From a virus, in IMG/VR virus record IMGVR_UViG_3300050343_000122, positions 1 through 64,000 of that record: a stretch of 64,000 bases of DNA. One strand, written 5' to 3'. The notes beneath the pieces were generated by a model. The model had not been told where the DNA came from, did no database searches, and saw only the letters and a program-made list of their open reading frames with translations. Made by a program: the position numbers and the translations under genes. Positions 28,474 to 51,315 of the stretch are shown here, in pieces (within the stretch, counting starts at the first letter, position 1; every line of letters begins with the position of its first letter).

Positions 28474-31400
28474 TTATATATCACAAGCACCTATTAGTGT
28501 GGCTGATGGTCCTAGATCACCAGGTGTATTAGTATTTGCACAAATGAAACTAGTCTGACCTGTTGCAACAGATACAACTTGTTCTATTCCACTACAGTCT
28601 GTATACCTTATTGCTATTGGTCCAGTAATTTCCCACTTAGAACAATTAGGTTGTATACTTGTAGTAGTAGTTGTTGTTGGAGCAAGTGTAGTACTAGTTG
28701 TTGTGGTTGTTGGTCCTGCACTTGGACTAACGCATGATGTAAGTTGAGTTATATTTGTTGGACTAAAGTAGTTTTCGATCTTTCCTTTACCACTAGTAGC
28801 TCCTTCTAGAACTACTTCAAATGGAGAGAAAGGTGCCACAGAAAACTGAGCATATGGGTAAACAGGAGTATTTCCTTTACATACAATTATAATGTCACAG
28901 TCACACGAATGGATTGTTATATCCACTCCACTAAATTCACTACTAGTAATAGTAGAAACTATCTCTGGAGTTACTACTTGGTTATCATAATCCCACTGAA
29001 CATATTCAAATGCTCCTGTTGCTATTACTTCTCTAATTGTTATTAGTTTACCTTCAGTTGTGTATAATAAATTAGTAGGGTATGTGTAACCAGTTTGTAA
29101 AAGAATTTTCGATGATGGGATTCCACTTGTTGTATCTATTTCTACTATAAATCCTTGAGCTGTATCTATTGCAAGAATTGCACTGTCATCTTTAACTACC
29201 ACTCCAGCAGTTGTACCAAATGCATTATCAGCGATTACTAAATCTGAATCTGCTACTACAGTCCATGGGCTTGTTGTAATTGTCCATTTCTTAAATGAAG
29301 TATTAATACCTGGTGAAACTGCGTATAGAGCAGTTGGGCCAACAGCTAACTTACCAGACGTATAGCCAGGAATATTTATATAGGCATAGTTAACCCAATC
29401 TTGTTCTACATTTTGAAGAACTACATTACCATCATCATCATTATAAATAAGTCCACAACATTGATCTAGATCTCCATTAAACATAGTAGTTGTAGTAGTT
29501 AATGTATTACAATCACATGGTACTTGTTCTAACAATATTCCATCTTCAACATAATTAGCAGTTTGATAAGAGTTTATATCTACACTAGTATACCAACCAT
29601 CAGGAACTTTTGTACAAGAATCATCATCACCAAAATAAAGAACTTGTCCTATAGATACGTTAGCACCATTAACATCTGCTCCTGAATATTCGAACGTGAA
29701 GTTTATAGGTACAGCCTCATCATTACTATTTAGATTTGCTAAAAATGCTCCTATAGCACAAGCACTTGCTGCACTTGATGATCCTATAATAGGAGCAGGT
29801 TCAGTCATAATCTGATAACCTTCTGTAAAAGTAGATTGTGAAAGAGGTGAAGGTCTAGAACAAATTGTTGTAGTAGTAGGACTAGGAACAGTAATATATC
29901 CTACACCATCTATGTCACAATTTATTTCTTCTAATATTGATATATCAAGATCACAATCAGGAACATATCCTGTAGTAGTTGTAGTAGTAAATAAAGGATC
30001 AGATGAAGTTGTGGTAGTAGTTGTTCTAATTTCTTCAGGTTCTACCTCTCCAAACCATCCATCCAGATATGGAGTCTCTTCCCCTATTTCAGATCTATCA
30101 GGAGTTTCTAACACTGCTGTAAATTGTGTACAACAGTTATTTATACCAGAATAGTAAAAGTTGTTTTCACCAATGTAGAAATTAGGTAGATAGGAATGAA
30201 AAGATATCCAACTTCTAGTACTAAAGTCAAAAGACATAGTCCAAGATTTGTTACAGAAATACTCTCTATCAAATAAGTATACTTCTTGTTCTTGTTCTGT
30301 TTCTCCTACCGTTACATAAAACTTCTTATTTACAGAATCATACCTTACATCATCGTTAACAGGAATATAGTCTAACTTAGTAATAATTACTCTATCAAAC
30401 CTATTATCATATACACCGTGTAACCCAATGCCATTAAAATGGTTGTCTGTATAAACATCTGGGAAGTATTCTAGAATCTCAAAAGGTAAATGACTTGTCA
30501 TAAATCTATTTACACCTGATCCAAACTTAGTCATGTCTATAACTTTTGACCCAGCCATTAAGAATATCTGACCTCTTTTTGCATCTGCAGTAACTGCTCC
30601 GTATGGAACTTTTAGTAAGAACTTATTTTGAGAACCTACATATCCCAAATCTGTCTCTGCAAAATCTATAGGAGGTGCTCCATCAAACAATCTAGGATTA
30701 CCTATATATGCTGCTTGAGGATTACTGGTATCAATAGTTAGTAACTTGTTATATAGCAAAGCTTTATTTTCAAACCTTGCCAATACAGCCTTATCCATCA
30801 TTCCATCTAAAGATGTTAGATTACCGTAGTTTTGTGGGAAGTCATGGTAAGAAAGAGCTCTATATACTAACCAGTTGTTTACTCTATTATCTGCACTGTC
30901 CCCTTGTGTATCTGAATAAATTGCTCTGAATGGAAAGAATGTATAACATTCAGCTATCCAATCTGGAGGCAGTTGACTAAACACATTTTCTTTGTTCTGT
31001 TTAGAGAATGTTACATTATAGTAATACGTATTATCTTGAGCAATTGGTACATTTGTTTCTTGTAACCAGTCATCAGGAATACCTGAACTTACATGAGGCC
31101 AGAAGTCTCCTTCTTTTGTATTAAATGCTTGCCTTAAGTCTGTATTATATACACTCTCACAATAGAAATTAGGAACACCATATGCCCATAGATACATATA
31201 TCCATCATAAAATGATCTATATGTTCCTGCATAAGACTCTTGATCATTAGGAGGTGGACCAATTAAAGAAGGATCGCTAGGACAATCAAGATTATGTGCT
31301 TTAGTTGATATAAGATTGTACATTAACTGATCAGGGTCGCCTGATGTTACATTATAAGGTTCTAAGATAGATCTTGCCGAATGCCAGTATTTAGGATAAG

Positions 31401-34400
31401 CAACATTACCTAACTCATCAAAGAATATATCTGAATCATCTGGTGCTTGCACTCTATTATCTATAAAGAATGGTAGTTTAGTTTTGAATGTAAATCTAGA
31501 TATAAATATATCTCCACCAAATATTGTATCTGTCCCTGAAGCTGTAACAAGTTTTTGATAACCAGTGTCAATTCTTTGAAATGAGTTTAATTGACCCCAT
31601 TGATTAGGAAGAATATTCTTCATAGAAGCATAGTATGATACTACTTTTATATCTTGCTCTTGTCCTGGTTTGTCACAAACTCCAGACTCCCCTATGCTAA
31701 ATCTTGAGTATTCTACCATACTAGATTCACCGTCTGCTCCAATTAAACTTTCAGTATTTTGAGGTAAAGGAAGTGCTAAAATATCATCACTAATAGTAGT
31801 ATTAATATATACAGAAGATTCTCTATTCCAATTATTAATTGGAGGTTGGCTATTATTAAAAGATTGTACACCTGGTATAAGGTATCTTGTAAGTTCTATT
31901 TCTCTTTGTTTGATACCACCGTTCGTATTATTATTGATAGGAAAATGATAATCATAGTTTGCTCTTGAGTTGAAAGACATTGCATAATTCTTTCTTGTAA
32001 TACCATTTATGTATATAGTAAGATAGGATTGGTATACTGTAAACATTATACCAGCATTAAATACACCTGAACCCATAGAAGCCACTCTCTCAGAACTTTT
32101 TAACGCATCTTCTTGAGCTTCTTTACTTAGAAGTTTGTACTTAGCATTGTCTTTAACTTCTACAAAGTGAGCCTTTCCTGCTCCAAACATTACACTTTCT
32201 AACTTAAGTACGCTTCCTAAGAATGGTTGTCCAAAAGATGTGTCTGGTGAATTGAAGATTTGCTTATCTAGAATATCTTTTGCTTCTTCATAGTCAGCCC
32301 CATCTAATGGTTTAATAGGTATATCTCTGTCACATTTTAAACAGGATCTTCTACTATGTCTTTTAGAGAATTCATTATTTTGTCCTCCAGAACCAGTATC
32401 ATTTGCATTTTCAGCTGGAGTAAAAGTATCCCAAGCATTTACTGGAGTTGGAAATCCAGGTCCGCTATAAGCAGCACTCGAAGCAACACTATCATCAAAA
32501 AGAGGAAGAGGATTAGTAGGTTGTCCAAATCCAGGACTTGGCCAAGGTTGTACATTGTCTGGATTTTCTTCTACTTTAACACATGTCTGACATGCTTTTG
32601 ATTCCTGATCAGGATCCGGACATGGGTAATTAGGATCAAAGGTATTTGGAGGATATGATATTATGTCATAGTTTTCTTCTGGATTATCAGGATCTGGTTC
32701 AGTACAAGGTCCTGGATAAATTTGAGTTAGAAAAATACGAGGATTTGAACAGCAACTACCAGAAGGTTCACGCCAAGTAGGTGCATAGGGGTGATTTCCT
32801 TCATATCCATAACTTGCTCCAGCTGGTGCTCCTCCAGGACTTTCATCAAAATCAATTTGGTTTGTACCATAAACATCAAATTCAGGGTCAGCATTTGTAA
32901 TCACATTAACTCTGTCAATACCGTCAATAATATCACCACCCCACCTCAGAGTAGCAGAACAATTTACTGTTCCATCAAAATTAAAATTGTTAAATGGATT
33001 TTGCCATTTTAATTCATATCTACTACAAGGGCCTTTATCACTAAAAGGTACAGGAAAAATCTGACAGTTGGAGCTATGGTCACCAATCCATACATCAAAG
33101 TCTCCAGGTCCTATTGTTATAACACCTTTCAGAGATACAGGTCTTGTTAAGGAACAAACTTCTAAAATACAATTAGGTGAAATAGTGGCTTGTGTTTGTT
33201 TACCATTTTCAATACTAGTATATACAAATACTCCATCTTCATCATTTACAGTTATATCTATACCATATGCAGTATACCAAGGTCCAAGAAAAAAATCTGT
33301 AGCCTTATCAGGCATATATAAAAGCCATGACTTAGATTTATAATTCCAAGCATTGTTATTCTCTTGTAGGAACGAGTCCTCTCCAGATACTTGATTATAT
33401 GGGTAGTTAGGGTAGTAGTATTCTTGATCATCTTTTGTATACTTGTTTAAATTTCTAAGAATACCTTTTGCTATTACTGATTTGTTTGTACCACGGTCCC
33501 CTCTTACTATTTTAAATGCTACAATATCATCTTTCTGTTCTTGAGTAAGATTAGAAGCTGTTATTAGTCCTGTTATTTGAGTATTGTTAATCTTAACTCC
33601 TATAGGATAGATAGCATCAGAGTCTTGCATCGTGGGTACAATACTAGTACCTTCATAAACAATCTGTGGATTTTCTACAATAGGACTTACTAATACATCT
33701 GGAAACTTATGATGTCGTATAGGTGTATCTGCAAGGCTTCCCCACAACTCAGTATTACATGGATACTTTTCAGTAGATTCCCAGTATGCAAAGTTTCCGT
33801 ATTCAAAAGGTCCTTTATAATTAGCTTCTCCATTATACTCAGGTGAAAATCCTAAGTTTGTAGCATTGTTATATATCTTCCAATAAGGACTATAACCAAT
33901 ACCACTTTCAAAGTAATCAGGTTCTCCAATAAAGTCATCATTGGTATTAGGAACATCCGGTTGAGGGTTTAGATTAAGTGGGCCTGGTATGTGAAATGAG
34001 TCTGTCTGTTTTCCATTTCGTAAAAGAAATACTATTTCAAATGCATACACTTCATCACGCATGTATCCACGATAATTAGTAGCATTCAATTCATCACTGT
34101 AGTCTTCTCCAGGTGGGAGTCTATGTGTTTCCCATTGTAATGTTATTTGACTAGCAATATTCTGATAATTAATTCTATCTACAGAAGCTAAGTCACTCCA
34201 TATCAGCGTGTCTTGTGCAGAAGTTATATCCTTGGCTACATCATAATATGGATACTTCTCAAAAATATCTGCAATAGATAATTGTATAGGATTTGCATCT
34301 GCACCAGTGTATGTAATTATCTGTTGATCTTCAGTAATGTTATATGTACCTACTAACTCTACAGAGGTTATATCATTAATAGTTTTTATTACTGCTAAAT

Positions 34401-35259
34401 TGAAGTAGTTATATTGTCCTGATAAGTCCAGGTTTGATACTCTTAGTTCTATTGATTTACCTACTGGATAGTTAAAGTTTACTGTTGTGTTTAACGGATC
34501 AGCAATAGGTGTAGGGTTAGTAACTGAATAGTAAGAAGTAAGATCGCTACCAGCTGCATCTGAATACTGTACAGCAAATTGATATGTTCCAGCAACCAGT
34601 GAGCCTACGTTTAGTATATCGTTTATTTCTAAAAAAGGTATGTCGAAATTAGGTTGTATCTTAAGTTGATTACAATCCAATTGATCAGTATATACAGGAT
34701 CACATCCAGGGTCTGAGTTAGGATCAATAACATATGGAATGTTATCTATATCTAAATATCTCCTAGCATTAAATCCATCTGTCCAGTATATCTCTGTACT
34801 GCAATTTGTTATTCTATGCACTACTTTATGTATAGGATAATCTATACTAAAGTTTAAACAAGGAGCATTTACTAATGTTTGATATTGACAATCATTATTA
34901 AACATGAAGCCAATTTCACTATCACCAGTTAAAGGATCTGTTAGAAAGAATATGTTTTTCTTTTTCTCTGGAATTGTATATTTTCCAATGAGTTCGTACC
35001 CATCAGGAAAACTTAAACAAGGCTCATTACCAGGTTCATTTTGATAGTTGACTGAACTAGAATCAAAGTTCTCTATAGTAGCATTCAATGCATAGGTAAG
35101 ACTTCCTGTCTTTACTTGATTGATGGTGCTATCCATGTTAAGACCAGTAGTAGCTTGATTATATTCAAGTCTAACTTGGCCTTTCTGAGCTTTGTCATCT
35201 TTTTTAGCAGCAGCAGCTTTTTTAGCTTTTGCGTCTTCCATTTCTTTTCTAGTAGCCAT
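28474..35259 (-). CDS. Large tail stabilisation-type protein with Thr-rich, propeller-like C-terminal extension
   Basis: The N-terminus (RLEYNQATTGLNMDSTINQV, then SLTYALNATIENFDSSSVN) closely follows the crAss-like tail stabilisation protein pattern, after a Lys/Ala-rich leader of about 27 residues. About 1700 residues of beta-rich sequence follow, ending near FYYSGINNCCTQF. From about residue 1740 the protein changes: TTTTTT tracts alternate with small modules, including a GDD...PDGWY unit similar to ones in the 179- and 380-residue fibre genes. A propeller-like region (about 1980-2190) precedes a final Cys-containing unit. It is probably a major tail component exposing fibre-like modules. 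It sits between a probable tail tubular gene and the 288-residue gene holding the rest of the family fold. Confidence 0.75.
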   Translation of the reverse strand: MATRKEMEDAKAKKAAAAKKDDKAQKGQVRLEYNQATTGLNMDSTINQVKTGSLTYALNATIENFDSSSVNYQNEPGNEPCLSFPDGYELIGKYTIPEKKKNIFFLTDPLTGDSEIGFMFNNDCQYQTLVNAPCLNFSIDYPIHKVVHRITNCSTEIYWTDGFNARRYLDIDNIPYVIDPNSDPGCDPVYTDQLDCNQLKIQPNFDIPFLEINDILNVGSLVAGTYQFAVQYSDAAGSDLTSYYSVTNPTPIADPLNTTVNFNYPVGKSIELRVSNLDLSGQYNYFNLAVIKTINDITSVELVGTYNITEDQQIITYTGADANPIQLSIADIFEKYPYYDVAKDITSAQDTLIWSDLASVDRINYQNIASQITLQWETHRLPPGEDYSDELNATNYRGYMRDEVYAFEIVFLLRNGKQTDSFHIPGPLNLNPQPDVPNTNDDFIGEPDYFESGIGYSPYWKIYNNATNLGFSPEYNGEANYKGPFEYGNFAYWESTEKYPCNTELWGSLADTPIRHHKFPDVLVSPIVENPQIVYEGTSIVPTMQDSDAIYPIGVKINNTQITGLITASNLTQEQKDDIVAFKIVRGDRGTNKSVIAKGILRNLNKYTKDDQEYYYPNYPYNQVSGEDSFLQENNNAWNYKSKSWLLYMPDKATDFFLGPWYTAYGIDITVNDEDGVFVYTSIENGKQTQATISPNCILEVCSLTRPVSLKGVITIGPGDFDVWIGDHSSNCQIFPVPFSDKGPCSRYELKWQNPFNNFNFDGTVNCSATLRWGGDIIDGIDRVNVITNADPEFDVYGTNQIDFDESPGGAPAGASYGYEGNHPYAPTWREPSGSCCSNPRIFLTQIYPGPCTEPDPDNPEENYDIISYPPNTFDPNYPCPDPDQESKACQTCVKVEENPDNVQPWPSPGFGQPTNPLPLFDDSVASSAAYSGPGFPTPVNAWDTFTPAENANDTGSGGQNNEFSKRHSRRSCLKCDRDIPIKPLDGADYEEAKDILDKQIFNSPDTSFGQPFLGSVLKLESVMFGAGKAHFVEVKDNAKYKLLSKEAQEDALKSSERVASMGSGVFNAGIMFTVYQSYLTIYINGITRKNYAMSFNSRANYDYHFPINNNTNGGIKQREIELTRYLIPGVQSFNNSQPPINNWNRESSVYINTTISDDILALPLPQNTESLIGADGESSMVEYSRFSIGESGVCDKPGQEQDIKVVSYYASMKNILPNQWGQLNSFQRIDTGYQKLVTASGTDTIFGGDIFISRFTFKTKLPFFIDNRVQAPDDSDIFFDELGNVAYPKYWHSARSILEPYNVTSGDPDQLMYNLISTKAHNLDCPSDPSLIGPPPNDQESYAGTYRSFYDGYMYLWAYGVPNFYCESVYNTDLRQAFNTKEGDFWPHVSSGIPDDWLQETNVPIAQDNTYYYNVTFSKQNKENVFSQLPPDWIAECYTFFPFRAIYSDTQGDSADNRVNNWLVYRALSYHDFPQNYGNLTSLDGMMDKAVLARFENKALLYNKLLTIDTSNPQAAYIGNPRLFDGAPPIDFAETDLGYVGSQNKFLLKVPYGAVTADAKRGQIFLMAGSKVIDMTKFGSGVNRFMTSHLPFEILEYFPDVYTDNHFNGIGLHGVYDNRFDRVIITKLDYIPVNDDVRYDSVNKKFYVTVGETEQEQEVYLFDREYFCNKSWTMSFDFSTRSWISFHSYLPNFYIGENNFYYSGINNCCTQFTAVLETPDRSEIGEETPYLDGWFGEVEPEEIRTTTTTTSSDPLFTTTTTTGYVPDCDLDISILEEINCDIDGVGYITVPSPTTTTICSRPSPLSQSTFTEGYQIMTEPAPIIGSSSAASACAIGAFLANLNSNDEAVPINFTFEYSGADVNGANVSIGQVLYFGDDDSCTKVPDGWYTSVDINSYQTANYVEDGILLEQVPCDCNTLTTTTTMFNGDLDQCCGLIYNDDDGNVVLQNVEQDWVNYAYINIPGYTSGKLAVGPTALYAVSPGINTSFKKWTITTSPWTVVADSDLVIADNAFGTTAGVVVKDDSAILAIDTAQGFIVEIDTTSGIPSSKILLQTGYTYPTNLLYTTEGKLITIREVIATGAFEYVQWDYDNQVVTPEIVSTITSSEFSGVDITIHSCDCDIIIVCKGNTPVYPYAQFSVAPFSPFEVVLEGATSGKGKIENYFSPTNITQLTSCVSPSAGPTTTTTSTTLAPTTTTTTSIQPNCSKWEITGPIAIRYTDCSGIEQVVSVATGQTSFICANTNTPGDLGPSATLIGACDI

Positions 35260-39073: not shown

Positions 39074-39739
39074 CTATCTCACATCACTTCCACAACATTC
39101 GTCATAGATCCATGAAAACTCAAAGTCATCTCCAGACGATCCTACCCACTGAAGATCTTCAATAAAACATGGGTTTACTAATGTATTCCCTGATATCTCG
39201 TAGTTGCGTATTGATAATGTACCTTGATTACCGTTTCCATTATTTTGTGTGTTTATCATTTGTACAGTGTTTCTTAGAGTTATTATATCTGGATCAAAAA
39301 AGAACAACTGCATGTTGCTCAAGGGACAAAGAAAGTCTGGTTCAGTTATCACTAACGGTGTATTGCTAGCAACAAATATCGATCCCACTTGAGCATTTTG
39401 ATTTAGATCTAAATTCCCTATTAAGCTCCCATTTAGAAATACATCAAAATTGTCATCTCTTTCTGAGTTCTCATTACAAACCTGAAAGACAGTGACAGTA
39501 TTTGGACAATTTGGAGGTGCGTCTATTTCTCTATCTAGATAAGTATCACAGTCAGGACTAGTAGATATAATTCTAACTACAGCAGTTCCAAAAGGAACGT
39601 TATATGAAACAAATCCTGCAAGTAGTTGATTGCTTGTTACATCTACTTCAAAAGCTTCAGTAAAACCATCAACCTGAGAAAACAAGTTAAAAGGTCCAGC
39701 ATCTGCTCCTATGTTACTAGCTTGTATTAGTATTGCCAT
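39074..39739 (-). CDS. Fibre-type protein with N-terminal docking domain (221 residues)
   Basis: Residues 1-75 contain the docking-domain pattern seen in the neighbouring fibre genes: GPFNLFSQVDGFTEAFEV, then a VTSNQLLAGF strand, VPFGTAVVRI and a closing SPDCD. The remaining 145 residues are beta-type with scattered Cys, ending DECCGSDVR, and unlike any family I recognise. There is no Thr-rich linker in this copy. It is the last gene before the double-hairpin terminator and ends in TAG, while most neighbours use TAA. Role as a fibre or decoration subunit is inferred from the paralogues. Confidence 0.6.
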   Translation of the reverse strand: MAILIQASNIGADAGPFNLFSQVDGFTEAFEVDVTSNQLLAGFVSYNVPFGTAVVRIISTSPDCDTYLDREIDAPPNCPNTVTVFQVCNENSERDDNFDVFLNGSLIGNLDLNQNAQVGSIFVASNTPLVITEPDFLCPLSNMQLFFFDPDIITLRNTVQMINTQNNGNGNQGTLSIRNYEISGNTLVNPCFIEDLQWVGSSGDDFEFSWIYDECCGSDVR

Positions 39740-40307: not shown

Positions 40308-41450
40308 TTATGGATCTGGACAATCCTCAATGTTAGTAATACGTCCATTTGTATCAATTTTTATAAGCCAAGTTCCTGGATCAGCTGTAGATATAGACAT
40401 TTGAAACTTGTACCATTTGTTGTCTCCGTTAAATGTTTGAAGTGCTGGAAATATTACATCATATGTAAAATCATTTATTTGTGGTTCAGCAAGTGATCCA
40501 TTTTTCCATAGGAATGCAGCAAGGTCAGCATTACATAAACCAATATTTAGATTTGAACTACTAGTTATTGATCTTATACCAGCTGCAAGAGATGCACTAG
40601 GTGTTGTACTAGTAGTTGTCGTAATTGGAGTTTTAGTTGTTGTAGTACCAGTAAGTGTTACGGTAGGATTATTTAAGGAACAATCACATGTAGTAGTAGT
40701 TGTTGTTGTTGAAGAAGAGCTGGTACTAGTTGTAGTGCTAGTAGAACTAGTAGAACTAGTAGTTGTTGTTGTAACTTCTTTATAAGTATCAGCTATAAAG
40801 GAGAAGTCTACATCAACTCCTGCTCCAGTATAATTAGGACTTAGGGCACTTACAAAACTATCAGTACAGAAAGTACACACATCCTGTCCTTGATATAGTA
40901 TTCCGTCTTTTTGAATTGTATTGATAAAATTGTAAACTCCGACTCTGTTACTATCTATTGTAGCAGAAACTACATCTCCTGGTAAGATTTGAATAGTTCC
41001 ACTTTGTGAAGATGCATTACCTGTAATAGTTGCATCTACAACATTAGTTCCATTAACATCTATTTTTAAGTTACTGCTCTGTGGATCTGCCGCAATTAGA
41101 GAACTTGGAGTGTTTGTTATCAACTCCCAATTAAATCTATTAGGTGGTTGATCTGTTGTAGTGGTTGATGTTGATGTTGAAGTACTTGTAGTAGTTGATG
41201 TACTAGAACTACTTGTTGTAGTTGTTGTAGGACAATTAGTTGGTAGGTCAATACAATTATCACATGTACCAACAGAGCAGACTCTTATAATAGTTGCTCC
41301 TGTAGGAAGTTCAATAACATATCCATTAGTTAAAGTTAAAGCAGGAACTTGTGTTTGAAATGGATTAGTATATCCATCTGCATCTGAGTATAAATCAAAA
41401 GGTCCAGCAGAGCCTCCTGGGGGTATGGTTATGTTTATTTGTATCAACAT
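40308..41450 (-). CDS. Fibre protein: docking domain, Thr/Ser linkers and two shuffled modules (380 residues)
   Basis: Order of parts: docking domain 1-72 (GPFDLYSDADGYTNPFQT, LPTGATIIRVCS, CDNC); Thr/Ser linker about 75-98; a beta module about 103-225 containing NLKIDVNGTNVV and GDVVSATI; a second Thr/Ser linker; a short spacer with a third Thr tract; and a C-terminal module with NADLAAFLW, KWYKFQ and a closing IEDC. The NLKI..NGT module also occurs near the C-terminus of the protease-fibre at 43189-46779, and the last module resembles that of the 179-residue gene. I infer a modular fibre assembled by exchange at the linkers. No catalytic motif. Confidence 0.65.
   Translation of the reverse strand: MLIQINITIPPGGSAGPFDLYSDADGYTNPFQTQVPALTLTNGYVIELPTGATIIRVCSVGTCDNCIDLPTNCPTTTTTSSSSTSTTTSTSTSTSTTTTDQPPNRFNWELITNTPSSLIAADPQSSNLKIDVNGTNVVDATITGNASSQSGTIQILPGDVVSATIDSNRVGVYNFINTIQKDGILYQGQDVCTFCTDSFVSALSPNYTGAGVDVDFSFIADTYKEVTTTTTSSTSSTSTTTSTSSSSTTTTTTTCDCSLNNPTVTLTGTTTTKTPITTTTSTTPSASLAAGIRSITSSSNLNIGLCNADLAAFLWKNGSLAEPQINDFTYDVIFPALQTFNGDNKWYKFQMSISTADPGTWLIKIDTNGRITNIEDCPDP
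40603..40775 (-). repeat. Thr/Ser-coding repeat tracts (380-residue fibre)
   Basis: Two Thr/Ser tracts, 40603-40640 and 40688-40775, flank a short Cys-containing spacer. A further tract of the same composition lies at 41151-41232 in the same gene. All are in frame and coding. Confidence 0.8.
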
Positions 41451-42027: not shown

Positions 42028-43164
42028 TTAAGGTATGTAAATTATATAATATGATCCAATTCCAGGTTGATAATTATTATGTGGTAATCCTCCACCAGTA
42101 GAATTTATTGTAACAGTTGTAGCTACACTTTGACTAACCTCAGTAGTTTTTCCTACAGTAGCTGTATTACTTGCTCCTCTAAGTGCATATCCTAAGTTAC
42201 CACCTGTGCTTTTTGACTGGCGAATATAGTTATTGCTTGTAGGAGGATTTGTTTCATTTGAACTTCCCATAGTTGCAACAAGGTGGGTGTGAGAAGCTGG
42301 ACTAAGTGAAGCTACTACAGTATTAGTGTGTGTATGTGAAGGTATTTGTGCTGTTGTTAATACAACTTGATTTGTTCCAGTAAGGTCATTTACGTTATAT
42401 GTAGGATTTCCACTAACAGACGGATCAACTATTTTATCCATAGTTTGACCTGGCATATCAGTAGCTCCAACAGCTACTCTTCCTCTCATATCTGGTGTAC
42501 CATTGTTTCCATTACATAGAAATATTCTATCCCAAATACCTATTCCTGCACCTGATGCATCAAATGGTGTTAAGTCTCCAAAGTATGGCTGTGCAGAAAA
42601 TGGAACCATTCGATTACTAATAAGCTGTTGCTGAGGATTAGTGTTTAAATAGTTTTCTATATACGTATTAATATCAACAATTCGTACGTAGTTGTTTGTA
42701 ACATCAGTAATAAAAGTGTTCAGTGACTGCTCAACTTCACACAACTTATTTATAGTTTGTTGTAATACATCTGATGTACTTGTAGTATCTGTTACTCCAG
42801 ATACACAGCCTACATCATAGTTTACATCTGATCCTGAACCACCTTCTATCTCACTTACTTCTTCCTGTAATTTACAGATAGTTTTGATTATACCTACTAG
42901 GTAGTTATTTAAAGTTAATGGATTACAGTCATCTAGATTAGCCTGCACTGCAGGGCATATATCTGATGGGGGAACCACAGGTGTTATACCTGTTCCGTCT
43001 AGTGTAGATCCTAAAAAGGTAATAAGAGCTTGCTCCACAAATGATAGGGAGTCTCCATTCTTTATTCCTAGTATAGGAACGTCTACACCTGTATATTTAA
43101 CGCACTTGTCTGAAGTAATTTCAGTACATCCGTTATAACAATTTGAGCAATTTTGTGTTGACAT
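42028..43164 (-). CDS. Tail-collar-domain fibre protein (378 residues)
   Basis: The N-terminus is Cys-rich (NCSNCYNGC), then CVKYTGVDVP and GDSLSFVEQALITFL, a docking pattern shared with two other small genes. Helical segments follow (about 85-175). Residues about 186-234 form a phage tail-collar domain: MVPFSAQPYFGD, WDRIFLCNGNNGTPDMRGRV, AVGA. The C-terminal part has two HTH-type metal-site motifs (SHTHTNTV, SHTHLV) and ends HNNYQPGIGSYYIIYIP, the usual termination of collar/microcystin-dependent-protein-like fibres, where His pairs commonly coordinate iron in trimeric tips. Probably a receptor-binding or spike fibre. Confidence 0.8.
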   Translation of the reverse strand: MSTQNCSNCYNGCTEITSDKCVKYTGVDVPILGIKNGDSLSFVEQALITFLGSTLDGTGITPVVPPSDICPAVQANLDDCNPLTLNNYLVGIIKTICKLQEEVSEIEGGSGSDVNYDVGCVSGVTDTTSTSDVLQQTINKLCEVEQSLNTFITDVTNNYVRIVDINTYIENYLNTNPQQQLISNRMVPFSAQPYFGDLTPFDASGAGIGIWDRIFLCNGNNGTPDMRGRVAVGATDMPGQTMDKIVDPSVSGNPTYNVNDLTGTNQVVLTTAQIPSHTHTNTVVASLSPASHTHLVATMGSSNETNPPTSNNYIRQSKSTGGNLGYALRGASNTATVGKTTEVSQSVATTVTINSTGGGLPHNNYQPGIGSYYIIYIP

Positions 43165-43188: not shown

Positions 43189-46100
43189 CTATGGTGATGT
43201 TTGTGTTACGCTTAGAGAAATAGCACCTGTTCCTGTTACAAAAAAGTTTCCAGCTACTGGACCTATTAATGTTTCAGCAGCTCCAGTATCGGTATCAGTA
43301 AAACTAGTAAATCCACTAACTTGAAGACCACTTGCTGTTAAAGTGCAGTTTTGTCCTGGGTTACTTGATTTATAAGTTGCTTGTAGATCATAATTCTTTC
43401 CGTTTACTAAAGTAAAGTTGTAAGTTCCATTACTGTTTGGATCAGCAGGATAACTCTCTGAAACATTACCGTCTTCACCATCAAAAGATACAAACTGAAC
43501 TCCGTCTCCAGGATCTTCAAAGTCTATTATAAGGCTTGCAGGTGCAGTTGCAGTAGTAATAGTATCATAAAGCCAAACACTATTACTTACACCTGTTTGA
43601 GTCCAGTTGGGAAAGACAAATGTATAGTCACTAGATGCAGATACAAGACTTGTATCGAATTGCGTTGGTTGAACACTAGTGGTTAGTTTGTGTTCAACAA
43701 AAGTAGTATCGCTTGATAAATTTTCAGTTGTCATTGATGCACTAATAACGTCACCTACTGCTGTCATTATAACACCACCGTCTGATGAATTAGTTGTGTT
43801 TATATTAGAATTTACAACTGTTGTACCATTAATTACTATCTTAAGATTCGCACTCCTAAATAGACTTGATCCACTTGGGTTAGAGTCTCCAGTAAACACC
43901 CAATTCCATGCATACGATTTAGGATCAGGAGTTGTACTTGTAGTAGTTGTACTACTTGTACTTGTTGTTGTAGAAGTACTTGTAGAAGTACTTGTGGACG
44001 TACTAGTAGTACTTGTACTTGTGGATGTACTTGTACTTGTGCTTGTGCTAGTAGAACTACTTGTAGTAGTGGTAGTAGGCACAGGAGTAGTAGTTGTTGT
44101 TGTTGTAGGTATAGGTGTGGTAGTACTAGTAGTTGTACTAGAAGTGCTAGTAGAACTACTTGTAGTAGTAGTGGTTGATCCACAATCTCCATATGCAGTA
44201 ACTTTATAACCATCTCCAGTTGTATGATCAAAGGTAGAAAGTATTGATGATAAGTCATTACCATTTGCATCTATCTTTGAAAATTGGAATGCACTTGTAC
44301 CTGATAACGGACCTGAAGCAGCGTTAGTGCTAACTTTACCATAAGGAACAGTAACTGCTCCAACTCCAACATCAAGAAGTTGATACACTGCTGTATAGTC
44401 TACTCCTCCTATATTAAATACTACATCATAGTTGGTATTTGGAACTTGAGACCAGTTGGTATAACTTGTTGTGTTTGTAGTTGGTCCAACGAAAGATGAT
44501 CGAACATATAGAGAGGGGGTATTCACACCTACAGGACTTGGTGGGTCTGTATACCAGAAGTTATTATCTGTAGTAGTTAAATAGTCAAACTCTAGACATC
44601 CAACTAGTGGTGTAATAGTTGTTGTTGTAGTTGTAGTACTAGAAGTGCTCGTAGAAGTGCTAGTGGACGTGCTAGTAGATGTACTAGTTGAACTACTTGT
44701 TGTAGTAGTAGTTGGTACAGGGGTAGTAGTACTAGTAGTTGTACTAGAAGTACTTGTACTGGTACTGGTACTGGTACTTGTACTAGACGAACTTGTTGTA
44801 GTTGTTGTTAGCTGATCATCTGGACATAAATAAAAATCAAGAAGGCAACCTGCTAACTTATCTCCTACATGTGTAAATATTAGTTCATTAATTCTATCAC
44901 CATTGTTTCTAGGAAATATATTAAATAAAGCACGAGCTGGTTGATCTCCTGAATTCAACTTTGCTTTAAATATCACACTACCATCTGTCTCATTAGAAAC
45001 TATAAAACTATCAGGATTTTCTCTACATACCTGTATAAATGATATATTAAGATCTACGTCAGATGTTACTCTCACTGTTTCATATATTCCTGGATTAGGA
45101 TAATACCCTATACCAGTACAGTAAAATGCCATAGATGATATTGAGTTATCAAATGACATTGTAGATGAAGCACACTTTCCACCACCTAGAGCATATGTAC
45201 CCTGATTATTATATTGATTATTGTGGAAACCTTGTAGTTCACAATCTGGATCAGTTCCATTATTTGCAAGAAGTTGCGAAGAAGAACTTGGAACATATGT
45301 TGTCTCACAATCAGCGTTATCAGATGATAATGTCAGTACAAATCCATTACTTAATGTTTTAACTCCATTTCCAGTGCTTATTCCTGGGAATCCCTCTGGA
45401 GCATCAAAGTTATAAGGTTGGCTACAGTTACCTGAAATAGGAGCTGAACTAGTGGTGGTGGTGGTGGTTTCAGAACCACAGTTATTTTCTAAACTACCTG
45501 TAAATCCTACTTGCCAGTACGCTTCACTTTCACAATATATTATTTTCTGGTCACTTTGTCCATCTATAGTTATATACTCAATTGTATCTGGATCTACTAG
45601 TGGACCAGGAGTAACAAACTGCTGTATACCCATTTGTTCTGCAACCATATCTATTCTACAGGCATAACCATATAGATAACAACCAGCTGCCACCTGAGCT
45701 CCACCAGCATAACATAGTCCTATTATCTTGATAGTTCCCTCTATATCTGCGAGGAGGAGTGATCCTGAATCTCCTGAATATATAGGATTACAACAATATT
45801 CTGTTGTACTCGCATTATCAGGATCTTCTTGAGGAGGTTTAATAAATCTAATAGCATCAGTAAACTTACAATTTACACTAGTTGCTTGTGAACTAGGATA
45901 AGCTATATTTTCAAGCGTAGCATTTATTGATTGAATTAACATAGGACAATCTGGTACAATACCTTTAGGTCCAGTAGTTCTTCCAGTACTATATACACGA
46001 GGGTTTGTAGCTAATATATTATCTATTTCTAATGTAGAAGCAAACGGTGGTGGATTACTACCTAGTATAGACTCTAGTCCTACTTGATTCCATGCAATTG

Positions 46101-46779
46101 TTGGATCCCATCTTGTCGGATCAATGGAAATTATAGCTGCATCTACCTGATTAAATAAACCTGTAGACTTTGCATGAATAGGAACATACTGTAAACTTAC
46201 ACCACAGTTATAACTTGCAGGTGTGGATGCACTTCCAAATTCTCCTTGTTGGTATACATAATCTACTGGACTATATTCATTTACAAGAGCTCCAGTAACA
46301 CTTCTATCAGATGTATAAAATGCATCTTGAATAGTAACGTGATTATTTGTTAAACCAACTGAACAGCCTGTTTCTGAATGTATAACTACACCTCCAAGAG
46401 TACCTACACTAGTTCCATTATTTCTACTAGAAAAAGAAATACCACCTTGTAAATGTTGAAAGAACTGTCTGTTTGCTAGTGAAGTGTTATTTGTTTGTCC
46501 ACAAGTTGAAGAACACGTACCTATAATTTCATGCTTCGCTATTTCTATTACATCTGTTTTTATACTTTTTCCAGATACTATAACACGTGATGGAATATGT
46601 TCATTTATTGAAATCTCAGAAAGAGGCTTCTTTTTTTCTACAGCTATAACTATAGCAAAGTCACCTGTCCACGTTCCATTAACAACTTTTCTTCCCCAAG
46701 CAACACTAGTTACATTAGGAAGTTGCTGAGACAACTCTAATATTCTATCTTTTATTTCTTGTGTTAATAGTCCTTTCAT
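43189..46779 (-). CDS. Trypsin-like serine protease fused to a Thr/Ser-rich fibre stalk (1196 residues)
   Basis: Residues about 1-85 form the small N-terminal domain often found before bacterial S1-like proteases (FAIVIAVEKKKPLSEI, IPSRVI, TDVIEI). The catalytic triad is visible: H147 in LTNNHVT, D213 in QVDAAIIS, S338 in SGDSGSLL. The protease part ends near residue 410. It is followed by a Cys-containing beta domain, a Thr/Ser linker (about 657-722), a second beta domain, a longer linker (about 868-950) and a C-terminal part that includes the NLKIVINGTTVV module shared with the 380-residue fibre. There is no signal peptide. Being between two fibre genes, it is probably mounted on the virion. 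Target (cell-surface protein, capsule, or self-processing) is unknown. Confidence 0.8.
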   Translation of the reverse strand: MKGLLTQEIKDRILELSQQLPNVTSVAWGRKVVNGTWTGDFAIVIAVEKKKPLSEISINEHIPSRVIVSGKSIKTDVIEIAKHEIIGTCSSTCGQTNNTSLANRQFFQHLQGGISFSSRNNGTSVGTLGGVVIHSETGCSVGLTNNHVTIQDAFYTSDRSVTGALVNEYSPVDYVYQQGEFGSASTPASYNCGVSLQYVPIHAKSTGLFNQVDAAIISIDPTRWDPTIAWNQVGLESILGSNPPPFASTLEIDNILATNPRVYSTGRTTGPKGIVPDCPMLIQSINATLENIAYPSSQATSVNCKFTDAIRFIKPPQEDPDNASTTEYCCNPIYSGDSGSLLLADIEGTIKIIGLCYAGGAQVAAGCYLYGYACRIDMVAEQMGIQQFVTPGPLVDPDTIEYITIDGQSDQKIIYCESEAYWQVGFTGSLENNCGSETTTTTTSSAPISGNCSQPYNFDAPEGFPGISTGNGVKTLSNGFVLTLSSDNADCETTYVPSSSSQLLANNGTDPDCELQGFHNNQYNNQGTYALGGGKCASSTMSFDNSISSMAFYCTGIGYYPNPGIYETVRVTSDVDLNISFIQVCRENPDSFIVSNETDGSVIFKAKLNSGDQPARALFNIFPRNNGDRINELIFTHVGDKLAGCLLDFYLCPDDQLTTTTTSSSSTSTSTSTSTSTSSTTTSTTTPVPTTTTTSSSTSTSTSTSTSTSTSTSSTTTTTTTITPLVGCLEFDYLTTTDNNFWYTDPPSPVGVNTPSLYVRSSFVGPTTNTTSYTNWSQVPNTNYDVVFNIGGVDYTAVYQLLDVGVGAVTVPYGKVSTNAASGPLSGTSAFQFSKIDANGNDLSSILSTFDHTTGDGYKVTAYGDCGSTTTTTSSSTSTSSTTTSTTTPIPTTTTTTTPVPTTTTTSSSTSTSTSTSTSTSTSTTSTSTSTSTSTSTTTSTSSTTTTSTTPDPKSYAWNWVFTGDSNPSGSSLFRSANLKIVINGTTVVNSNINTTNSSDGGVIMTAVGDVISASMTTENLSSDTTFVEHKLTTSVQPTQFDTSLVSASSDYTFVFPNWTQTGVSNSVWLYDTITTATAPASLIIDFEDPGDGVQFVSFDGEDGNVSESYPADPNSNGTYNFTLVNGKNYDLQATYKSSNPGQNCTLTASGLQVSGFTSFTDTDTGAAETLIGPVAGNFFVTGTGAISLSVTQTSP
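43931..44177 (-). repeat. Thr/Ser-coding tandem repeat tract (linker of protease-fibre)
   Basis: About 245 bases of near-periodic ACT/ACA/AGT codons encode alternating Thr and Ser with two short PVPT/PIPT interruptions. Six-base units (ACTAGT, ACAAGT) recur many times. The same units occur in the linkers of at least four other genes here, giving sites for recombination or slippage. Confidence 0.85.
44614..44810 (-). repeat. Thr/Ser-coding tandem repeat tract (first linker of protease-fibre)
   Basis: A second tract in the same gene, made of the same six-base units and interrupted by one PVPT. It separates the Cys-containing beta domain from the following beta domain. Its sequence is similar enough to the 43931-44177 tract for intragenic deletion or duplication. 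Confidence 0.85.
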
Positions 46780-46788
46780 ATCTATGTG

Positions 46789-49551
46789 TTATGCTGGTTC
46801 TGACCCTGCACTGAATTTGGTAAATATTGTTCTTACACCAGGTATAGGTGTAGTAGTGGTAGTTGTTGTTGTTATATCAGGATCTGTTGTAGTAGTGGTA
46901 GTTGTACCAAGTACTGCAAATCCATCATTTGTTCTACATAATGGTAAACTTCCTGAACTTCCACCAAAGTATTCATCTTCGTTTGCTACTTCTTCCCAAA
47001 CATGTGTTTGTAGATTAACTCTATATAATCTAAATCCTCCTGTAGTAATACCTAAAGTTACATATAAATAATCATCAACTACAGCCATATCTCCACCACT
47101 GTTCCAATTACCAACTGGTCCTGGAATCTCTACTTCTAGATTACCTGTGTCATAATCAAACTGAGCAAGTACATATGGTTGAGTTCCATAATTAGATTTG
47201 ACTGCTATAAATTTATTTGGTGTTCCATCTTCTTTAAGGGTAACCACATGTTCACCAGAACCATTAAATGGTTCAGGTATAAAGAATTTAAGTGCAACTG
47301 CTAATGTTGTAGATCCATCTACAAATTCAGCTTCAATCACTTGTTGACCTCCTCCAGCAAAGGAAGAGATACCATACGATAGTACCATTAAGTTGTCATT
47401 AACCGTACTTACTCCAAAAAAAGTAGGAGGAAATATATTAGGTAACCCACTTTGATCTATAGTATAAAGTATACCCTCCCATGTAAAGTTTGAAGGTGTA
47501 CCACTTGGTAATGTGGTATCATAACTCCATCTTGTAAATTGTGTAATTCTATCTCCTTCTGCATTTTTATTGTTAACTTGACCAATAAAATAATTATTAG
47601 TAATATCTGAATTAGGTAGTTGGAAATAGCTACCTCCTGGAAGAGCAATTTCCTCTATAGTATTTGTTACAGTATTTTGTGAATAAACTCTACTATAGGT
47701 TCCATTCAAATTATCAGGAGCACATATTCCATCACTACATCTATATGCAACGTTACGAGTAAATATTCTTGAACAACTTAAAGGAGGGGTGACACAACCA
47801 AGCAGAATTGGTCCCCCAGTTGGTGCATTACCGGATATAGTTATAACAGTAAAGTTGGTAGGAGTTGTTACAATAAACTCTCCATCACCTTCTGTATTGT
47901 AATCTGGCACACCTCCACCTATTCTATTTCCTTGTACTTGTACATTACATCCATTACTTATTGATATAGAAGGTGTTCCTGTATTTGTAGTAATTTCATA
48001 AACGTCCCCAGCACTAAAGTCAGGAGAAGTGTTAAGTACAGCAGCTCTAATAGGAAGATTATTAATAGGACTTTCAAAAGTTAGAGTAATACTAAAATCA
48101 TTACCTTGAACAGTTGTTAACTTATTAGTTGCAGCTGGATTAGATAATCCACTACATCCGCTATTAGGTATACCTCCAACTGGATTTCCTGGTAGTAATG
48201 CTAAGAAGTTATCGTCAGCACTAGCTGTAACCTGAATTCCCTGATATGTAAAAGTAACAGGCCCAATATAGAAGAGGTTATTTTCAGCATCTCGTTCAGT
48301 TAGTGCAGGTATCCAAGTAGCCTCACAATCAGGATCTGTTAATTTAATACCAACATTTGCACAACCAGTTGATGTATGTATCCAAACACTATCGTCAGCC
48401 ACTGTAGTTTCTAATGTAGCATTATATGGTGCTGTTTGACTTATGTTATATACTTCAAGTGTTTCTGGTTGAATTACTTGTATTAATCCATTTACACCCC
48501 ATACAGGCATAGCTTTAGTTGAACCAGTCCATGTAGATGTAAATTCAGGAACACCAGAATTCTGTAAGTTGATTATAGGAGTGTTAGGATTTGGTGACCA
48601 ACTACCAGATGAAGGTAAGCCTGGATATTGTTTAATTCGATTTGAGGCATTGAAATCACTTTGGTCTTCATAATATCTACTAGAAAGAATAACATCACCA
48701 TCATTAGTAATAAACATACCTGTAAGCTCTGTTGTGTGTCCAAAGGTATTACCAAAGCTAACAGTGACTTGATCACTATTATTAAATTCAGTTAATTCAA
48801 TATCTCCAACTGTAGAAATGTCCCATTCGTAAACACCCATAGCAACATTTCCATTAAATCTATCGCTAAACCCTACAAGTAATGTTTTATTATCAGAGGT
48901 TGTAGCTATTGTAGATATTTTAGTTCCCCATATACTTTTGTAATTAAGTGAACTTACAGCAATCGTTATTTCTCTAACATAAGATAAAGTTGGTGCAGAA
49001 CCAGATAGAACTATGTCCCACTCTCTAATGTATGCCACTGTATTATCAGTTGTAACACTAGCCAACCATAACTTATCTTCTGTAGAGCAGATAGGTCTGT
49101 TGATTCCTACAGTAGTTGTAAAGTCATTAGGTACAAGCACAGGACTTGAAGAATTAGTATTAAAGTCATATACAGCTATTTCTCCAGGGTTACCTCCATA
49201 AGTTGACCATGTACATGGTGAGAATGCTGGATAATTAGTACTTGTTGTAGTACTTGTTGATGATGACGTGGTTGTTGTTGTTGTAACATCACAAAGAATA
49301 GATCCAGAAAAATCACAGTTTGGTGTAGCACAAGAATAAATATCTGTTGTATTAGGTGTACACAATGCACCCAAGTCCAACAGTCTAACAGTTATAGTTC
49401 CATCAGGGGCTAATGATGTTTCATACCCAGACAATAGATCCGCTTTACTCACACCTGTCTCAAATGGAGTAATAAACCCATCTACGTTCGAGTATAGATC
49501 AAAAGGACCTGTGTCTGCACCTGCAAAACTTAATGTTATTATTATTGTCAT
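46789..49551 (-). CDS. Fibre protein: docking domain, Thr linker, two propeller-like regions (920 residues)
   Basis: Residues 1-66 are a docking domain (GPFDLYSNVDGFITPFETG, LLSGYETSLAPDGTITVRL). After a Cys-pair spacer and a Thr/Ser linker (about 90-105), residues about 110-370 contain repeated four-strand-like units (for example DKLWLASV and GDVILSSRY) suggesting a beta-propeller. A middle Cys-containing domain (about 375-590) follows, and a second propeller-like region (about 590-880) has units such as VNDNLMVLSYG and VDDYLYVTLG. The protein ends with two Thr tracts and a short tail. No catalytic residues are recognised. Probably a binding fibre for cell-surface glycan or protein. Confidence 0.65.
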   Translation of the reverse strand: MTIIITLSFAGADTGPFDLYSNVDGFITPFETGVSKADLLSGYETSLAPDGTITVRLLDLGALCTPNTTDIYSCATPNCDFSGSILCDVTTTTTTSSSTSTTTSTNYPAFSPCTWSTYGGNPGEIAVYDFNTNSSSPVLVPNDFTTTVGINRPICSTEDKLWLASVTTDNTVAYIREWDIVLSGSAPTLSYVREITIAVSSLNYKSIWGTKISTIATTSDNKTLLVGFSDRFNGNVAMGVYEWDISTVGDIELTEFNNSDQVTVSFGNTFGHTTELTGMFITNDGDVILSSRYYEDQSDFNASNRIKQYPGLPSSGSWSPNPNTPIINLQNSGVPEFTSTWTGSTKAMPVWGVNGLIQVIQPETLEVYNISQTAPYNATLETTVADDSVWIHTSTGCANVGIKLTDPDCEATWIPALTERDAENNLFYIGPVTFTYQGIQVTASADDNFLALLPGNPVGGIPNSGCSGLSNPAATNKLTTVQGNDFSITLTFESPINNLPIRAAVLNTSPDFSAGDVYEITTNTGTPSISISNGCNVQVQGNRIGGGVPDYNTEGDGEFIVTTPTNFTVITISGNAPTGGPILLGCVTPPLSCSRIFTRNVAYRCSDGICAPDNLNGTYSRVYSQNTVTNTIEEIALPGGSYFQLPNSDITNNYFIGQVNNKNAEGDRITQFTRWSYDTTLPSGTPSNFTWEGILYTIDQSGLPNIFPPTFFGVSTVNDNLMVLSYGISSFAGGGQQVIEAEFVDGSTTLAVALKFFIPEPFNGSGEHVVTLKEDGTPNKFIAVKSNYGTQPYVLAQFDYDTGNLEVEIPGPVGNWNSGGDMAVVDDYLYVTLGITTGGFRLYRVNLQTHVWEEVANEDEYFGGSSGSLPLCRTNDGFAVLGTTTTTTTDPDITTTTTTTTPIPGVRTIFTKFSAGSEPA

Positions 49552-49575: not shown

Positions 49576-51315
49576 CTAAACTCCATATCCAAAGCTTATT
49601 AATGTATTTCTTATTTCATCATACCAGTACTGCTCTGGGTTAGCAGGATTATTATCTAGATCCGCTGACCATGCAAATCTTGCAGGACTTGCACTTGGGT
49701 AGTTTACTAGATTATCTGTAGAACTGTTGTAAGCACTAGCAGGAGCATTACCAATACTTGCAACTACAGCTACACCATTATTTCCTGCATTAAGAAGTCC
49801 TTCAGGTGAAACTAGAGGTTTTATTGTTGAGAATGTGTACTGACTTGTAGCTGCTGGATGGAAAAACTTAGCTCTATATACATTAGTGTTACCTTTTGCA
49901 TTTTCTACATTCGTAACAAAAGTTCTTACACTTGCTATATCATCTACTATTCTTGAATTTGTTTGACTCGCTCGAGTTGACCAGGAGGTCCTGAACTTGG
50001 GTAATTACCATCCATATTATATCCTATACCTGACTCATCACCAAATGCCATAATTACTAAACTATCTGCATCAGGAAAATATCCTGTTGGGTCTATAGTG
50101 TCCCCAAGACCTTTGTTTGAGAGCATTTGAATTTGTCTCTCTTGACCACTATGACACCAGTATACACGAGTTTCAAACTCATCACTACCATTGGTAGCTC
50201 TGTCTGTATTTCCACTTGCTTCAGTTCCACCTGTTGCATAAAAATCTTGAAGTAAGTTTCTTAAATTAGATGTGTTTTGGTAATCAGCAGTTTTCTGAGC
50301 ATCTGTTAGATTAAACGTGACAACACCATTAGCTCCCTGGATTAATATCTGCTGTTAATGCAACAGGGTCTCCATTACTGTCTACAAGATTAAATGTTAG
50401 AGCATTTGATCCTACAGTAATAAAAGTTCCTGCAGGTATTGAAGGATGTATAGCTTCCATGCCAGGTACCACACATAAATACGCCCCACCTGTAGTGTTT
50501 CCACTAGGTTGTTGCACGGTAACTTTATTAGCCTGATTACCATATGACAGTTGGATTTGTGTTGATCCTGCTGGTGCAGTTCCACCAACTAGAACTTTTA
50601 CACCTGTAACACTAGCTATTTTTGCTGTCACTGCAATTGTGCTATTCATAGAACCTGAAACATCACTCCAGAAAGTAAAGTATGAGTTTCCTGTGACTGG
50701 TATTAGACTACTAGTAGTTGTAGTGGTAACAGGATCAGTAGTGGTAGTTGTTGTTGTGCTTGATGTACTTGTACTAGTTGTACTTGTACTAGTTGTACTT
50801 GTACTTGTGCTAGTTGTACTTGTACTAGTACTAGTAGAACTAGTTGTGGTAGTAGTTGGTGTTGTAAAACATCCTTCCACTCTACAGTCTGGATAGATTG
50901 TACTAGTTGTAGTAGTAGTTGATGATGTACTAGTTGTAGTAGTACTAGAGGTACTAGTTGTTGTTGTTGTTGGATTAGGACAAGGTTTGATTGCACATGT
51001 AGTTATTTCACATACAGTTGGTTCGTTACAGAATGGTACACAACCAGCTGTAAGACGTATTACCTTACTTGCAATGTCTTCTGTAGATACACTGTTGCAA
51101 CCTTTTGCATAATGACTGTCACAAAATCTATGTTGTAATATACGTTTATAGACTAACAGTTCTGAAATCTCACTAACAGCTATGGGTCTGTTTAACATAA
51201 ATACAACATTGTTGTATAAGTTATTCCCTAGCTCTGCAAGTTTACAGTCTATTTTTCGTAATAGATCAGGAATGTTTGCACACTCCTTACAATTCGTTAG
51301 TCTTGGTGAGATCAT
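49576..51315 (-). pseudogene. vWA-like fibre protein interrupted by two compensating single-base indels (about 579 residues if repaired)
   Basis: The first frame (51315 down to a stop at 50329) encodes a Cys-containing helical N-terminus (LRKIDCKLAELGNNLYNN), two Thr/Ser linkers and the start of a vWA domain with MIDAS motif D218-V-S220-G-S222-M. Sensible protein (FNLTDAQKTADYQN to VIMAFGDESGIGYN) then continues in the +1 frame, and returns to the original frame near 49977 to finish at 49576 (NTLISFGYGV). A run of three G (50335-50337, minus strand) reads through with two. A run of two A (about 49977) reads through with three. Both are homopolymer changes and net zero, so sequencing or assembly error is likely, though a real lesion cannot be excluded. 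Function if intact: surface-binding fibre. Confidence 0.75.
50708..50971 (-). repeat. Thr/Ser-coding repeat tracts (vWA fibre)
   Basis: Tracts at 50708-50864 and 50898-50971 encode Thr/Ser linkers split by a short PDCRVEGCF spacer. Units are the same ACTAGT/ACAAGT hexamers used in the protease-fibre. Confidence 0.8.

Follow-up and report, generated by a model that had tools for sequence, protein, structure and literature searches.

Organization of the protease locus

The DNA stretch analysed here (the window) comprises 64,000 nucleotides (nt), positions 1 to 64,000 of the IMG/VR record IMGVR_UViG_3300050343_000122, a virus contig of 113,502 bases, and contains a gene for a protein of 1196 amino acids (aa) at 43189..46779, in which a NAL1-like serine protease domain is followed by beta modules joined through Thr/Ser linkers. 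Immediately upstream, the partner gene (46789..49551) stops 9 nt short of the protease start and codes for a 920-aa protein with a kelch-like body (the kelch match is weak) and Thr-rich linkers, one of which (46840..46905) precedes a short C-terminal tag, GVRTIFTKFSAGSEPA (46792..46839), with the core TIFTKF at 46813-46830. Both genes, with all their parts, lie on the minus strand. The pairing of this kind of tag with this kind of protease is strongly supported by the comparison of related loci.

Within the protease gene, the protease domain (residues 1-433; 45481..46779) is the unit that is kept as a stand-alone protein in relatives; it begins with a NAL1_N-like N-terminal domain (about residues 1-85; 46525..46779) and holds the codons of the catalytic residues H147 in TNNHV (46339..46341), D213 in QVDAAI (46141..46143), and S338 in GDSGS (45766..45768). 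The initial annotation had described the remainder of the protein as Thr/Ser linkers and beta domains, and three linkers and three modules can indeed be mapped there: linker 1 (residues 434-449; 45433..45480), Module A (450-654; 44818..45432), present in the closest relatives only, linker 2 (655-725; 44605..44817), Module B (726-864; 44188..44604), linker 3 (865-953; 43921..44187), and Module C (954-1196; 43192..43920), which is common to the tailed proteases and whose first part resembles a domain of the window gene at 40308-41450. Thr and Ser account for 37% of this 760-residue tail, and its structure model has a predicted local distance difference test score (pLDDT) of 36.

A NAL1-like serine protease with a complete triad

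The His, Asp, and Ser (GDSGS) residues claimed in the initial annotation are found at the positions given there and are invariant across the family, in 42/42 aligned members from the first search and in 21/21 distinct domains reached through an unrelated neighbouring virion gene. The first search was made with the TNNHVTI pattern and is therefore biased toward H147. The viral relatives reach down to ~37% identity. A remnant that has lost its catalytic activity and serves a structural or binding role would be in keeping with the stalk and beta modules added in the window lineage, but it is at odds with the invariance of the three catalytic residues in 60 distinct domains and is very improbable.

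An AlphaFold2 model of residues 1-436, built from 24 sequences, reached a mean pLDDT of 68.5 and a predicted template modelling (TM) score of 0.78. Its top 34 Foldseek matches are all rice NARROW LEAF 1 (NAL1), with E values from 2.6e-14 to 4.2e-10 and ~410 aligned columns that span the whole domain (TM 0.50-0.57, identity ~14%), followed by Streptomyces-type and related serine proteases. The Pfam model of the NAL1 N-terminal domain (PF25608, NAL1_N) gives weak, sub-threshold matches in 8 of 24 family members (best E 0.0033), none in the window member, and a match above the cut-off in a Rhizobium plasmid homologue. Given the fold match and the PF25608 matches in relatives, the N-terminal helper domain that had been proposed from the sequence most likely corresponds to the NAL1 N-terminal domain.

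Among profile collections, the window protein has one strong match, to PHROG 20754 ('protease'), over profile positions 23-215 of 324 and hence short of the serine region; this profile is matched by 23 of 24 family members (best E 2.6e-20). The window protein alone has no match in Pfam or NCBIfam and nothing significant in a single-sequence search of the PDB, and a profile search of the PDB returned weak matches to picornaviral 3C protease and rice NAL1. The Pfam Trypsin model (PF00089) matches nothing in the window's own genome and one family member at E 0.023. A tblastn search of the phage collection with the window protease found no match, the same search with a second family member found one weak partial match, and a scan of the genome collection yielded no confirmed relative. 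Two distant bacterial relatives were found in a plasmid search. A NAL1-like protease of a Rhizobium plasmid (L049, 1944-2897) adjoins a radical SAM protein and a HEXXH peptide-modification protein, a setting that resembles that of peptide natural products. On the combined sequence and model evidence, the window domain is a clan-PA, NAL1-like serine protease with a complete triad and is predicted to be active.

A C-terminal tag accompanies the protease

The gene upstream of the protease is intact in 38 loci, the window included; in every one of them it ends in the tag after a Thr-rich linker and stops 2-12 nt before the protease gene. A six-frame check of the same loci found no other open reading frame (ORF) ending in the tag. 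The motif has the general form G-V-x-T-I-[FWY]-T-x-F, and 40 distinct sequences give the consensus G-V-[NRK]-T-I-[WFY]-T-x-F-[ED], in which T and F are invariant. A first version of the pattern missed nine loci, which showed a TIWIKF variant; the pattern was then widened and used on every locus, as well as on the genomes without the protease. The codons of the core vary synonymously (one of the listed DNA cores being a chance antisense match), which points to selection on the peptide.

Two other explanations of the motif were discarded. A ribosome-binding site of the protease gene is ruled out by the synonymous variation and by a tag that stands before a non-protease gene in G002, and a general mark of Thr-rich proteins is ruled out by the presence of the tag in only 45 of 238 Thr-rich ORFs.

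The association was also assessed from sister loci fetched through a 188-aa virion protein, with the protease left out of the query. Downstream sequence of at least 7 kb was available for 58 such loci: 37 carry protease and tag, 19 neither, none the protease alone, and two, both fragments, the tag alone; Fisher's test gives 2e-13, a value that is not a true probability, since the contigs are related. A tag-first DNA scan with TIWTWFE returned 25 stretches, and all 21 that lie in a Thr-rich context adjoin a protease, three of them on previously unseen contigs with the tag in C-terminal position; the remaining four belong to unrelated proteins. One protease and one tagged protein each are found in the window genome, G001, and G025, and in two contigs of 113 and 119 kb that lack the protease, the widened pattern finds no tag on any Thr-rich protein.

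Several sister loci, G008 and G009 among them, have no protease, and this distribution bears on a possible role of the enzyme as an essential morphogenetic protease for prohead or tail maturation. Such a role would suit a gene located within a structural cluster, but the gene is not conserved throughout the clade, its position varies between genomes, its fold and N-terminal domain are NAL1-like, and maturation of a core virion part is unlikely because similar-sized sister genomes lack both protease and tag. The accessory distribution and the changing genome place argue instead for a role in host interaction, and the morphogenetic reading is largely refuted and the least probable of those considered.

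Pairing at a distance

Two tandem proteases and two tags are found on G002, a contig of 113.6 kb. One protease groups with the TYF-tag clade and adjoins a TIFTYF-tagged partner; the second falls inside the clade with TIYTHF-tagged partners (100/99 support; 75-79% identity). The sole TIYTHF tag of this contig lies ~52 kb away, on a protein of the type encoded in the window as a 328-aa Thr-rich protein (50329..51315, minus strand), upstream of a tail-fibre gene and not of a protease. These type-matched pairs are the best single argument for recognition over linkage. Tandem protease pairs with two different tag classes were also seen in L017 (7995-10563) and L022.

The same observations bear on the alternative that tag and protease form a co-inherited cassette whose products make no contact, the tag capping the stalk or binding something else and the protease being free or otherwise virion-associated. 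The near-constant adjacency of the two would be explained in this way, as would the frequent homology of the carrier bodies, through joint transfer. Conversely, the tag type tracks the protease type across the ~52 kb in G002, the synonymous variation of the core leaves no conserved DNA or ribosome site, and the 328-aa-type carrier, which has no tag in the window, bears the tag at its end in some genomes and other sequences there in genomes without the protease. A cassette without contact is accordingly judged improbable.

Several points weigh against recognition of the tag by the protease. Most of the co-occurrence could reflect linkage, because tag and protease are usually neighbours; the sampled contigs are related and not independent; and pairing at a distance is seen in just one large genome, G002. 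Moreover, in five fragments obtained with the 188-aa query the tag stands on an orthologue of the 328-aa protein with no protease within the fragment, and further fragments found with the TIYTHF pattern likewise bear the tag on this orthologue and lack the protease.

Tag carriers and interchangeable modules

The N-terminal regions of tagged proteins are of several kinds, including the GPFDLYSNVDGF domain, the 328-aa type, a 103-aa type, 'MAIPSRQ', 'LKAYIRIDGSGR', and, in L023, an orthologue of the Crassvirus muzzle protein. Most tagged bodies are homologous to the kelch-like body of the window partner, and the body in L011 is Fib_succ_major instead. The L023 orthologue shares 56-63% identity with the window muzzle and continues into the partner body and then the tag; the L023 protein does not match the Pfam muzzle model, so its identity as a muzzle is based on the alignment with the window muzzle. 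The fusion indicates that the tagged body sits on a virion protein in the L023 phage. The presence of the protease on the particle may be deduced from the place of its gene and from this fusion.

In L053, L056, and L103, the partner runs 400-470 aa beyond the tag and includes a module 75-85% identical to Module B (residues 726-864) of the window protease, which suggests that the same distal module can be borne by the tagged protein or by the protease. In L053 and L103, the C-terminus of the partner reads, by eye, as the tag, Module B, and a von Willebrand A-like stretch (VAFIVDYTQSMGS).

These extensions are relevant to the main rival of docking, namely that the tag is a cleavage site of the protease, which would trim the fibre end or cut off the part behind the tag during maturation or release. 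Cleavage would account for the identical pairing data, the tag lies behind a flexible Thr-rich linker where a protease could reach it, and the 400-470 aa beyond the tag would be set free. In most phages, however, the cut would remove only about 9-15 residues, and the extension in L053 and L056 is a module of the kind found elsewhere on the protease, which is easier to reconcile with a complex that stays together than with a fragment that is cast off. The usually short product, and the fact that either chain can carry the distal module, lead us to prefer docking, and we consider cleavage at the tag rather unlikely.

The stalk of the protease is a later addition

The initial annotation regarded the protease as mounted on a mucin-like fibre stalk. 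The window protein does have its own Thr/Ser stalk, but this is not the defining mount: most viral relatives are stand-alone proteases of 415-465 aa that end shortly after the domain, and the L006 protease, 73% identical to that of the window, likewise stops there. The frame of the L006 gene (1160-2463) is broken by a frameshift near residue 122, by assembly error or decay. Tails are found in some lineages only, and every partner of a tailed protease carries a TIFT[KR]F tag. Between linkers 2 and 3, the window and L001 proteases carry different modules; in L001, residues 706-854 of the protease form a module 54% identical to a domain of a separate window gene (39074-39739). Beta modules move between separate genes at the Thr/Ser linkers, probably through recombination in the repetitive linker DNA. 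As judged from the sequences compared, the stalk is a later addition with reshuffled modules in some lineages, and the conserved link to the fibre appears to be the short tag that ends the Thr-rich stalk of the upstream gene, not the stalk of the protease itself.

The source phage and its gene setting

The head-and-packaging genes of the source contig match the PHROGs phrog_6681 (TerL), phrog_6547 (portal), and phrog_11589 (major capsid protein), and TerL has relatives among human-gut crAss-like phages and Cellulophaga phages. A 2261-aa window protein (28474..35259, minus strand) is identified as the Crassvirus muzzle protein by its match to PF25731 (E 2.1e-33). The crAss-type TerL, portal, major capsid protein, and muzzle of the order Crassvirales are thus all present, and these matches identify the source as a crAss-like phage from the environment. 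In the phage collection, TerL is closest (41%) to that of Leptolyngbya phage Lbo-JY46 (PP438436.1; L050), whose recorded host is a cyanobacterium; the other cultured TerL relatives listed beside it have Bacteroidota hosts.

The protease gene had also been placed between two fibre genes, and this setting was borne out: the downstream gene (42028..43164, minus strand), Gp10_C-like, matches tail and tail-fibre PHROGs, and the upstream partner gene, also fibre-type, has a Thr-rich product with a weak kelch match. Five genes between window positions 39074 and 49551 (those at 39074, 39754, 40308, 41454, and 46789) have in common an N-terminal domain of ~70 aa (the GPFDLYSNVDGF domain), which is probably a common virion-attachment domain.

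Proposed mode of action

The reading that we favour, at about even probability, is that the protease is an accessory NAL1-like enzyme carried on the virion, which the tag recruits to stalked fibres and which probably acts on host surface proteins. In a clade of environmental crAss-like phages, the protease would work together with a partner, a stalked fibre protein with a Thr-rich linker and a beta-strand-like tag. The protease would recognise the tag, which would dock it at the fibre tip, so that the particle brings the enzyme to the cell surface, where at adsorption it may clip host surface proteins or the phage's own adhesin; host surface proteins, suggested in the initial annotation, are a plausible target, and the other suggestion made there, that the enzyme matures the fibres themselves, may also apply. 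In the window lineage, a Thr/Ser stalk with shuffled beta modules has been added to the protease itself, which would make it part of a longer composite fibre. We infer physical binding, docking over cleavage, display on the particle in the window phage, and the substrate.

A broader version, to which we give somewhat less than even credence, is that the tag acts as a portable recruitment code: a C-terminal peptide on any virion protein (adhesin, 328-aa protein, or muzzle) would specify the protease mounted on it, and the types would be kept separate on each particle.

Relation to known systems and significance

NAL1 is a plant cell protein. The window protease resembles rice NAL1 and its bacterial homologues in the whole-domain fold, including the N-terminal domain, and in the His-Asp-Ser triad, and differs in its low identity, its phage origin, its tagged-fibre partner, and, in the window lineage, its stalk. 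The nearest structure in the viral library, protein A0A7S9XDX3 of Virus NIOZ-UU157 (449 aa, 43% identity, TM ~0.8), is uncharacterised, and its length suggests a stand-alone protease without a stalk; the label of PHROG 20754 gives no function, partner, or tag. By analogy, phage tail depolymerases and tailspikes are also enzymes carried with fibre genes, but the window enzyme is a protease, not a glycan or peptidoglycan enzyme, and its mount is apparently a short tag on another protein. The muzzle protein (PF25731) is shared with the tail apparatus of Crassvirales. In the open-access literature, no description was found of such a protease in crAss-like phages, of the tag pairing, or of a tag-bearing body at the C-terminus of a muzzle protein. 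The protease is a phage branch of a known family, and the pairing with the tag would be the new part.

The pairing predicts that a peptide of ~10 residues should bind, or be cut by, the soluble 430-residue domain. It also offers a way to approach, at the level of function, the phage branch of a protease family that is poorly understood; all its best solved matches in this analysis are rice NAL1. If the tag docks the protease, phages could attach an enzyme to different fibres by simple genetic means, and alongside the virion enzymes known to cut glycans and peptidoglycan there would be one that cuts proteins.
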